A stretch of DNA of 59,063 nucleotides, taken from positions 1 through 59,063 of the forward strand of contig JABDED010000010.1 of assembly GCA_013287275.1 (NCBI GenBank), read 5' to 3'. The stretch is from Betaproteobacteria bacterium. Its GTDB lineage: Bacteria > Pseudomonadota > Gammaproteobacteria > Burkholderiales > Burkholderiaceae_D. A program made the position numbers and the translations under genes. Positions within the stretch are counted from its first letter, which is position 1; each line of letters begins with the position of its first letter. The notes beneath the pieces were generated by a model. That model saw only the letters and a program-made list of their open reading frames with translations, had not been told where the DNA came from and ran no database searches. Shown one piece after another: positions 23,829 to 26,826 of the stretch.

Positions 23829-24434
23829 TTATTTTCTCGAGCTATGGACGATATCGACAAACTTCACCGCTTGCTGTTCCATGTCCACCACCAGGCTATC
23901 GACCAGTGCGCGGAAATGGCGGTAAAAAATCAGCGCAGGCATCGCGATCAGCAAGCCGAAACCGGTGTTGTACAAGGCCACCGAAATGCCGTGCGCCAGT
24001 TGCGCAGGATTCGCGCCGGAAGCGCTCTGCGAGCCGAAAATCTCTATCATGCCGACCACGGTGCCGAACAGGCCCATCAACGGGGCCAGCGAAGCGATCG
24101 TGCCCAGGGTCGTCAGGAAACGCTCCAGTTCATGCGCTACGGCGCCGCCGGCTTCCTCTATCGATTCCTTCATCACGTCGCGCGGCGCATCCACATTACG
24201 CAATCCGGCTGCCAGCACCTTGCCCAGCGGCGAATTGGCCGCCAGGTGGTCAATCACCTCTTGCTTGACCTTGCCGGCTTGGTAAACGCGTATGACTTCC
24301 GCCAACAGGGTCTTGGGCAAAATGCGCTGACGGCGCAAGGACAGGGAGCGCTCGATGATCAAAGCCAGGGCGATGATGGAAGCAAGCAGCAGTAAATAAA
24401 TCGGCCAGCCAGCCGCTTGAAGAATAGCGAACAA
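23829..24434 (-). CDS. exbB: ExbB/TolQ/MotA family proton channel protein
   Basis: This inner-membrane proton channel subunit of 201 residues has three membrane helices (about 7-27, 108-128 and 150-170). The family motifs LGTIASLAPLMGLFGTVVGMIEIF and ISVALYNTGFGLLIAMPAL are intact. It has no signal peptide, in contrast with the longer ExbB at 58 kb. It forms a complex with the adjacent ExbD. It is divergent from xseA across a 1-kb gap full of DnaA boxes, and is probably the first gene of an operon running through lpxK and kdsB. Confidence 0.92.
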   Translation of the reverse strand: MFAILQAAGWPIYLLLLASIIALALIIERSLSLRRQRILPKTLLAEVIRVYQAGKVKQEVIDHLAANSPLGKVLAAGLRNVDAPRDVMKESIEEAGGAVAHELERFLTTLGTIASLAPLMGLFGTVVGMIEIFGSQSASGANPAQLAHGISVALYNTGFGLLIAMPALIFYRHFRALVDSLVVDMEQQAVKFVDIVHSSRK

Positions 24435-24577
24435 AAGAAGCTCCTTGAGGGTTCAGTCAAATCCAACCCCGCAATGTAGCGTGTTGTCTGCCCTTGAGCA
24501 AGCCTTGCCCGGCGAAATGCGACAAACTGAAGTGAAGAAACAGGATGTAGGGGAAGCCGGGCATCCGGCGGTTCTGC

Positions 24578-25450
24578 ACATTTTCTGTGTGCAAGATTGT
24601 GGACATCTTCAACAATTCATCCTAAGTGCTTGATTTCAATCACCATTATCAGGACGCCCAAATTTTAAGCAAAACAAAAAGCCGCAGCCAGATTTTTATT
24701 ACCTGCATTTCTGCACATTTTTTGTGGATAAAATTGTGTGCAAGCGGAAAAATTTTCGCTAAGCCGCTGATTTTATTGGAAATTGAAGTTCTGCTTAAAA
24801 ATTTTGCAGCTTTAAAAAAATCCCGGCCCGCCGCCAGAAATTCCACCCTATCCCAAAAATCGATCCCCTTTCAAGCTTGCCGCCAGCCTCGTTTTTTTGC
24901 ACAAAAATTGTGGATAAGATTGTGTGCAAGCGGAAAAATATCCTGCAAGTGGCTGATTTTATTACACATAAATCGACTGCCAATTTAATAGGCAGTCCTC
25001 TATAAAACAAAGGGCAATGCCAATAAAACAATTTCATTTTGCTCCGGCAAAAATCAAGCCAGGTTCTGCACAATAATTGTGGATAAGTTTGTTAGCAAGC
25101 CTGCCAGATATCGCTAAGTAATTGATTAAATTAAATAAACTATTTCTGCTTAAATAATTGGCAGGCGGCAAAATATCAGCCTTGACAAATTGATCAACTT
25201 TAAAAAGTTTATTCGCCAGCCGCATAGGCTTATTTGCCCACGGATTCTGTGGATAACTTTGTGAACAATATGAAGAAGGAGCACTAAAGTCCTTGATTTG
25301 TAAGGATTTTCCTACTTTGCCACATTATTACGCAAAATCGACTTTTCATTAAAAATCAAATACTTAGCTGATAATAATGAATCTTTTTTGACATCACGGC
25401 CGCTTGATGACATCCTGATGCCCAAACCACGCTTCTGTGGACAGCTTTTT
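24578..25450. repeat. Degenerate repeat array with same-orientation DnaA boxes
   Basis: Four exact DnaA boxes, written here as TGTGGATAA, lie at 24723-24731, 24909-24917, 25078-25086 and 25248-25256, spaced 186, 169 and 170 bp. Weaker copies are at 24598 (TGTGGACAT) and 25436 (TGTGGACAG). The best units read TTCTGCACA, 3-6 A/T bases, TTGTGGATAA, then TTGTGTGCAAGC, so each box sits between TGCACA and its complement TGTGCA. The copies then share GGAAAAAT and CTAAG..GCTGATTTTATT. The whole gap between exbB (start 24434) and xseA (start 25465) is AT-rich and has no gene. Candidate roles are DnaA titration, a replication origin, or a regulatory block. No dnaA, dnaN or gyrB gene is near. Confidence 0.8.
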
Positions 25451-25464
25451 CCCTTTTCAGCCTT

Positions 25465-26826
25465 ATGATTCCTGATTCGCGCGCCCCATCTCCAGCAATG
25501 ACGCCGTCCGTACTGACAGTTTCGGCGCTAAACCAAGCAGTTGCTCAGCTGTTGGAGCGAAACATCCCGCTGACGTGGGTTTCCGGCGAGATATCCAATT
25601 TCACCCGCGCTGCATCTGGACATTGGTATTTCACGCTGAAGGACCAGGCCGCCCAGGTCAGGGCTGTGATGTTTCGCGGCCGCGCCCAATATGCAGGCTT
25701 CATGCCGCGCGAAGGGGACAAGGTCGAAGTCCGGGCCCTGGTCACGCTGTATGCGCCGCGCGGCGATTACCAACTGAGTGTGGAGGCTATCCGCCGCGCC
25801 GGCCTGGGCAACCTGTATGAAGCCTTCCTGCAATTGAAAGCGCAGTTGACGGCTGAAGGCCTGTTTGACCCGCAGCGCAAGCGTGCTATCCCCGGCTTCG
25901 TGCGCAGCATAGGCATCGTCACCAGCCCGCAGGCTGCAGCCCTCAGGGATATCCTGACCGCGCTACAGCGCCGCGCGCCGCACATAAGGATAGTGCTGTA
26001 CCCGACACCGGTGCAGGGTGAAGGCTCGGCGCAAAAAATTGCCCAGGCCATCGCCACCGCCTCCAGCCGCGCCGAGTGCGACGTGCTGCTGGTGTGCCGC
26101 GGCGGCGGCAGTATCGAGGATTTATGGTCTTTCAACGCAGAAATCGTAGCCCGCGCCATTGCCGCATGCAGCATGCCGGTGATCTCCGGCGTGGGGCATG
26201 AAACCGATTTTACGATCGCCGATTTTGCGGCCGACATACGCGCCGCCACCCCCACTGCCGCCGCCGAACTGGCAGCCGCTCCCAGGGCCGACTGGCTGGC
26301 AGAACTGGCGCAGTACGGCAACGCGCTACAACGGGCGATGCGCAGGCAATTATCCAGCCATGCGCAAACTCTGGACTGGCACGCGCGCCGGCTACAAAGC
26401 CCGGCCGCAGCGATCACTCACAAACGCCTGCAATTGCAAAGCTGGTCGCAAAGGCTGGCCTACTCTGCCAGATACCCGCTGCAAAACTCCCGCGCCAGCC
26501 TGACGCAACTGCAAACCAGGCTGCGCAACCAGTTGCCGGACACTGAAAGCTACCGGATCCAGCTGGCCGAATGGAAGCGCAGGCTGGCCGCAGGCGCCGC
26601 CGGCCAGACCAGGACGCACAGGCAGGAGCTCGCCGCGCTGGAAGCGCAATTGGAGTTGCTAAGTCCGCAAAGGACGCTGGAGCGTGGCTACAGCATCCTG
26701 AGCGACCACAAAGGCAAGCTGATACGCAGCACAAAACAACTGCAGCCAAACACCAGCATCAATGTCAGGACCGCAGGCGACAGTGCCGAAGTGGGCATCG
26801 CCAGCGTGCAGCCCAGCCTGGATTAA
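25465..26826 (+). CDS. xseA: Exodeoxyribonuclease VII large subunit
   Basis: XseA is the catalytic subunit of ExoVII, which degrades single-stranded DNA in both directions and acts in mismatch repair. It has 453 residues. An N-terminal OB fold (about 15-110, [25 protein letters not shown]) precedes the catalytic region with [33 protein letters not shown] and the [28 protein letters not shown] motif. A long coiled coil follows. The start at 25465 is chosen with a weak ribosome-binding site; an ATG at 25498 is an alternative. The small subunit xseB is not adjacent. Confidence 0.96.

Follow-up and report, generated by a model that had tools for sequence, protein, structure and literature searches.

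The exbB-xseA intergenic region

The window, that is, the whole 59-kb stretch of DNA analysed, belongs to a draft genome of 3.2 Mb (181 contigs, 56% complete). It contains a gene-free gap of 1,030 bp and 40% GC (24435..25464) that separates exbB, a member of the MotA/TolQ/ExbB family on the minus strand (23829..24434, Pfam PF01618), from xseA, the gene for the large subunit of exonuclease VII on the plus strand (25465..26826, Pfam PF02601). By Pfam, the neighbours are ExbB and ExbD on the minus strand and XseA and an Fe/Mn-SOD on the plus strand; ORFs and Pfam confirm the divergent arrangement of exbB and xseA given in a preliminary description of this DNA. An ORF of 120 aa (24626-24988) crosses the repeats of the gap. 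A structured RNA in the gap was considered and rejected, the single Rfam match (13.8 bits) being far under the gathering score of 60 bits.

Four exact DnaA boxes (TGTGGATAA) are located in the gap at 24723, 24909, 25078 and 25248, all of them on the plus strand (four forward, none reverse) and spaced 186, 169 and 170 bp, and no further exact copy is present elsewhere in the 59-kb window. In 5,000 dinucleotide shuffles of the gap the mean number of exact boxes was 0.0056 and the maximum was 1. The boxes, their orientation and their spacings, all previously noted, are thus borne out by the sequence scan. The phasing of the spacings at 10.5 bp (R = 0.64 for 111 spacings and 0.38 for 40 distinct values) is only suggestive, since relatedness inflates the value of 0.64.

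Weaker copies of the box had been placed at 24598 (TGTGGACAT) and 25436 (TGTGGACAG). Both exist, the former as the third position of a fifth module and the latter as a lone box outside any triad. This lone DnaA-box-like sequence (25436..25444, plus strand) lies 29 bp before the xseA start and is accompanied by neither box I nor box III. Many Oxalobacteraceae loci likewise have a lone TGTGGACAG or TGTGGATAG box at -16 to -41 of xseA, and in some other loci it lies somewhat farther away.

Organization of the modules

The window contains five three-box modules besides the lone box. In each module, box I is reversed at -14 with respect to box II, and box III is forward at +12. The repeat unit had been described as a box placed between TGCACA and TGTGCA; these flanks are real, but that reading is incomplete, since they coincide with degenerate forms of the reversed box I (-14) and of box III (+12). 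An IHF-like site is found downstream of the boxes, the consensus used being TAAnnnnTTGATW (PMC4245941).

All modules are on the plus strand. Module 1, at the distal end (24572..24635), has box I at 24572-24580, a weak TGTGTGCAA in position II (24586-24594), TGTGGACAT in position III (24598-24606) and an exact match to the IHF consensus (TAAGTGCTTGATT, 24623-24635). The strong box of this module sits in position III, and a similar far-end module is present in the arrays of several relatives. Module 2 (24709..24772) is composed of box I at 24709-24717 (7/9), an exact box II at 24723-24731, box III at 24735-24743 (6/9) and an IHF-like site with one mismatch at 24760-24772. In module 3 (24895..24958), box I at 24895-24903 (7/9), the exact box II at 24909-24917 and box III at 24921-24929 (6/9) are followed by an IHF-like site with two mismatches (24946-24958). 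Module 4 (25064..25127) carries box I at 25064-25072 (7/9), an exact box II at 25078-25086, box III at 25090-25098 (5/9) and an exact IHF consensus (TAAGTAATTGATT, 25115-25127). The proximal module 5 (25234..25298), which is the one present in many Betaproteobacteria, consists of box I at 25234-25242 (6/9), an exact box II at 25248-25256, box III at 25260-25268 (7/9) and, at +38, an IHF-like site with one mismatch (25286-25298). Boxes I and III of the window are weak, matching at 5-7 of 9 positions, and box III of module 4 falls below the 6/9 rule.

The same geometry emerges from 33 proximal and 126 array units taken from the regions upstream of xseA in Undibacterium and its relatives. Five loci without boxes (L040, L043, L048, L049 and L063) and three near-duplicates (L047, L050 and L064) were left out of these counts, and locus L025 has no xseA within its piece. 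When a second box was sought at offsets of -35 to +44 that are more than 8 bp away from box II, the match peaked at +12 in forward and at -14 in reversed orientation. In the proximal units, box III read reversed at +11 ranks second, with an average of 5.79 of 9. Of the 126 array units, 102 have the CACA of box I and 96 the TGTG of box III; the corresponding numbers for the 33 proximal units are 19 and 31. With at most one mismatch, the IHF-like site of the array units is at +37 in 69 of 126, at +38 in 20 and at +25, the third most frequent offset, in 12; among proximal units it is located at +38 with one mismatch in 17 of 33, none of them having the exact consensus. Across the 126 units the columns of the boxes and of the IHF-like site are conserved, and the spacer columns carry little information.

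Comparison with known DnaA-box loci

The core of the E. coli DARS loci is described as boxes I to III, with box I opposed and a spacing that is equal in both loci (PMC5742627; PMC8682772). When the DARS1, DARS2 and datA regions of E. coli K-12 were scanned for DnaA boxes and their partners, boxes I, II and III scored 8/9, 9/9 and 7/9 in DARS1 and 7/9, 8/9 and 7/9 in DARS2, in both cases at -14, 0 and +12. These offsets are identical to those of the array, where modules 2 to 5 combine an exact box II with a box I of 6-7/9 and a box III of 5-7/9. The suggestion that the locus is DARS-like is thus supported at the level of sequence geometry. Furthermore, DARS1 (bioD-uvrB) and DARS2 (rppH-mutH) are, like the array, intergenic and upstream of a DNA repair gene. 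There are also differences: each E. coli locus has one core, whereas several tandem modules are present here, and most modules of the array, which adjoins xseA, have an IHF-like site at +37. DARS2 is characterized by IHF sites that its activation requires and by the Fis sites FBS2-3. IHF-like sites also occur close to the DARS2 core (at +79 and, on the other strand, at +95 and +496, each with one mismatch), but their spacing from the core differs from +37; the same motif scan detected none at DARS1.

The datA region resembles the array in being a DnaA-box cluster with an IHF site (one exact match to the motif) and in having a box that is followed by a tandem partner at +12. However, for its six boxes of at least 8/9 the box I partner never rises above 5/9, so that they are devoid of the head-to-head box I, and the placement of the IHF site also differs. 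The array units do possess a box I at -14, and membership in the datA class, which had been proposed as well, was rejected on this ground. Six DnaA-box clusters outside oriC have been reported in Bacillus subtilis, whose deletion leads to early initiation (Okumura 2012, via PMC13220808). They share with the array the presence of several DnaA boxes outside oriC, but IHF and DARS loci are reported to be absent from that organism (PMC13220808), in which the effect is titration-like. E. coli DnaA shows in ChIP-seq a preference for double boxes 2-3 bp apart (PMC11317965), which is the spacing between boxes II and III in the array.

Occurrence upstream of xseA

A similarity search with the gap gave matches in 23 of 25 genomes of the genus, which is probably Undibacterium, the genome of the window included, and in 2 of 16 others. 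Arrays are found upstream of xseA in Undibacterium, Janthinobacterium, Duganella and Massilia-type loci, and a single module occupies this position in many other Betaproteobacteria. Nineteen Undibacterium loci have 2-9 boxes upstream of xseA, although the array content of loci L008-L027 is not an unbiased rate, since they were picked by similarity to the array. Strict triads were counted in 43 genomes of the genus, priA sites being included in the per-genome counts: 42 have at least one and 29 have three or more. Absence or scrambling of the repeats in close relatives, which the preliminary description had listed among the signs against its reading, was not observed: arrays recur next to xseA, although 14 of the 43 genomes have fewer than three strict triads.

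In a further comparison, 80 named xseA loci were chosen by protein similarity and 76 were kept, four with less than 300 bp upstream being left out. An exact box lies within 600 bp in 54 of the 76, accompanied by a box III of at least 6/9 in 49 and by the full triad in 37; that is, 22 lack an exact box and 39 the full triad. Four or more boxes are present in 13 loci, namely those of Undibacterium (3/4), Janthinobacterium (5/5), Duganella (2/2), Massilia (1/1), Pseudoduganella (1/1) and Herbaspirillum sp. SJZ107. The remaining loci have three boxes at most and many have none; for instance, no box was detected in the 1.5 kb upstream of xseA in Herminiimonas, Oxalicibacterium and one Herbaspirillum. 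Across loci, the exact box nearest to xseA is at -132 to -422, and arrays extend up to 1.5 kb.

One locus (L058) is on a contig titled as a metagenome-assembled genome of Alistipes senegalensis, a species of Bacteroidota, and encodes an XseA that is 60% identical to that of the window. It is probably a mislabelled betaproteobacterial contig.

Triads in other genomes and the priA site

Strict triads were found in 142 of 200 Burkholderiales genomes, and the reversed-pattern control gave none. Among the 30 triad loci listed (one per genome, that of the window included), 18 are by xseA, 8 by priA and 4 elsewhere; hemE is within reach in 6 of the 8 loci adjoining priA. Another 29 Undibacterium loci among those listed (L210-L238, also one per genome) comprise 16 by priA, 12 by xseA and 1 elsewhere. 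Some 1.5 Mb of sequence from two Undibacterium genomes contains 41 distinct exact boxes, of which 6 belong to full triads, four of them at the xseA array of genome G014 and two at priA.

In a class-wide sample the triad was present in 156 of 229 genomes, again with no hit for the reversed-pattern control. The priA gene lies beside the triad in 13 of the 28 new loci listed; none of the 28 is beside xseA or mutH, and uvrB is represented by a single 30% match, inside a priA locus. Ten of the other 15 loci were sampled, with one ORF each, at a Pfam E-value of 1e-10: six matched, all to different families, and four gave no match. Judging from the neighbours of these non-priA loci, about half of the class-wide sample gives no support to a link with repair genes. 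The region upstream of priA is thus a second recurrent location of a DARS-like triad, both in Burkholderiales and in other Gammaproteobacteria. In the genome of the window, the priA site (L005, G000:C49, 4882-4890) is in the hemE-priA gap and has a box I of 4/9 and a box III of 8/9.

Another contig of this genome (L004, G000:C141) carries two exact DnaA boxes at 2319 and 2486, 167 bp apart and in the same orientation, outside any triad. Each of them is preceded by a TGTTAACAA stretch, and they are downstream of a SIS-domain gene.

Chromosomal position and the replication origin

Since the genome of the window is divided into 181 contigs, the position of the array between oriC and terminus was judged in relatives. 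In the complete genome G014, 40 sampled stretches show that the sign of the skew changes at about 545-630 kb (terminus side) and again at about 2.65-2.73 Mb; one stretch, at 2.84 Mb, is weakly negative. When the region from 2.6 to 3.0 Mb was scanned more finely, both G-C and T-A skew reached their minimum at 2,688 kb. In G016, also complete and sampled only from 1.90 to 2.46 Mb, G-C skew is lowest at about 2,078 kb. The array is at 4,133 kb in G014 and at 3,767 kb in G016, that is, 1,445 and 1,689 kb from these minima, which corresponds in both cases to 0.69 of the half-chromosome (in G016, from the minimum of the sampled stretch). In G015 the value is about 0.61, if a like cluster at 3,626 kb is taken as the origin without a skew check. 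This relative distance is similar to that of E. coli DARS1, which lies at about 0.66 of the half-chromosome according to published coordinates (PMC11317965) and genome length. The array is therefore intergenic and between oriC and terminus, as DARS loci are.

The minima of G014 and G016 fall on another cluster of intergenic DnaA boxes, with inverted box pairs 158 bp apart, which is probably the true oriC of Undibacterium. It occupies positions 6463-8500 of L148 (G014:C1:2680001-2700000), where TTATCCACA followed by CTACTACTAT repeats and AT tracts are also present, and positions 6750-7587 of L246 (G016:C1:2070001-2090000). The genome of the window has a like cluster, similar in its box pairs and in their contexts, at 4207-5445 of L003 (G000:C93). 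There, the box pairs flank a phosphorylase-superfamily gene (PF01048), by eye an MTA/SAH nucleosidase, of which the pieces from G014 and G016 showed no copy. The dnaA gene is about 261 kb (G014) and 312 kb (G016) from the cluster at the skew minimum, so that dnaA and the origin seem to be uncoupled.

The preliminary description had also allowed for a replication origin in the gap. A gap that is AT-rich, holds many DnaA boxes and is not close to dnaA would suit a main or secondary chromosomal origin, the more so as dnaA itself is off the skew minimum in G014 and G016. However, the GC skew of the window has a negative sign to the left and to the right of the gap alike and does not flip at the array, and the minima of the two complete congeners (G016 in its sampled stretch) are more than 1.4 Mb away on the other cluster. 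The array is thus not the main origin, and an origin function of any kind is exceedingly improbable.

Functional interpretation

We favour, with moderate confidence, the reading of the gap as a tandem array of DARS-core-like modules, on the basis of its sequence organization. Points against it are the weak boxes I and III of the window, an IHF-like site spaced otherwise than those near DARS2 and never exact in proximal units, the xseA loci that lack an exact box or the full triad, the poor box I of the priA site in this genome, and the absence of xseA and mutH beside the 28 class-wide loci. DnaA binding, IHF binding, the release of ADP and the direction of the effect are inferred here by analogy with E. 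coli. ADP-DnaA, produced with Hda after initiation, would assemble on boxes I to III, and IHF would bend the DNA at the IHF-like site that most modules carry some 37 bp beyond box II. The assembled DnaA would then lose its ADP, be released and bind ATP, a process that could be repeated at each module, and the recharged DnaA would set the timing of the next initiation at the distant oriC. Hda scores over the cut-off in all five Undibacterium genomes searched and IHF-alpha in four, the fifth being an incomplete draft; hence, ADP-DnaA is expected to be formed and would be available to a recharging site. The presence of several modules would increase capacity, and the array is accordingly expected to bind DnaA in quantity as well; titration may be either a by-product of a DARS-like locus or a rival to it.

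As a rival, which is the main one and which we consider rather unlikely, titration would mean that the array mainly soaks up DnaA, the flanks corresponding to boxes I and III only raising affinity. Four exact boxes in one orientation, with the II-III spacing of the double boxes preferred by E. coli DnaA (PMC11317965), would serve this purpose, and so would the 2-9 boxes of the 19 Undibacterium loci; the early initiation that follows deletion of the B. subtilis clusters (PMC13220808) provides a precedent. However, titration requires no opposed box I at a constant -14 and no IHF-like site at a constant +37, and both recur; the datA region has no triad, and a lone module, such as that of other Betaproteobacteria, would presumably soak up little DnaA. 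Both activities may coexist. A transcriptional role can likewise coexist with a DARS role: DnaA bound at the array would regulate xseA and/or exbB and tie exonuclease VII to the replication cycle. The sites are in a divergent promoter gap with a lone box at -29, priA is preceded by the second recurrent site, and E. coli has DnaA sites upstream of uvrB and other replication or repair genes (PMC11317965). Nevertheless, a nearest box at -132 to -422 and arrays of up to 1.5 kb are unusual for an operator, and this explanation is improbable.

It is less probable still, indeed very unlikely, that the repeats are a functionless tandem duplication undergoing drift, or the site of a different protein that reads the TGCACA-TGTGCA dyad. 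The units are repeats, some of them degenerate, the dyad is palindromic, and the proximal box III can also be read as a reversed box at +11. Against this, it is the box and IHF-like columns that are conserved over 126 units, and not the spacers, and the dyad corresponds to boxes I and III, whose resemblance to the DnaA box is closer in other Betaproteobacteria.

Relation to previous work and significance

DARS function has been worked out in E. coli, and conservation has been described for close relatives (PMC5742627, PMC4245941). A 2014 paper names the gamma-proteobacteria in this respect (PMC4245941), and a review mentions the features of DARS2 as conserved among close beta- or gamma-proteobacteria (PMC5742627), so that the occurrence of DARS in Betaproteobacteria may be partly known. 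No prior report of the array, or of a DARS beside xseA or priA, was found in the open-access papers searched. Thus, the putative DARS core in Betaproteobacteria is an extension of what has been described, and the tandem arrangement of DARS-like and IHF-like elements is the new part. A broader proposal can be made only tentatively: DARS might be old and general in Gammaproteobacteria in the wide sense, often located upstream of repair or restart genes (uvrB, mutH, xseA and priA), and the Oxalobacteraceae copy might have grown into a multi-module DARS-IHF array. The repeated placement by repair and restart genes is a question in itself.

The recurrent triad at xseA and priA would offer a concrete, deletable handle on replication timing in Burkholderiales, a large bacterial group. 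A natural array would also allow a direct test of dose-dependent DnaA recharging and of whether titration and recharging can be separated. If the broader proposal is true, DnaA recharging in Oxalobacteraceae would scale with the copy number and the replication of one mid-arm locus. Bacteria of the Undibacterium type may control DNA replication by means of a multi-copy version of the E. coli replication switch.
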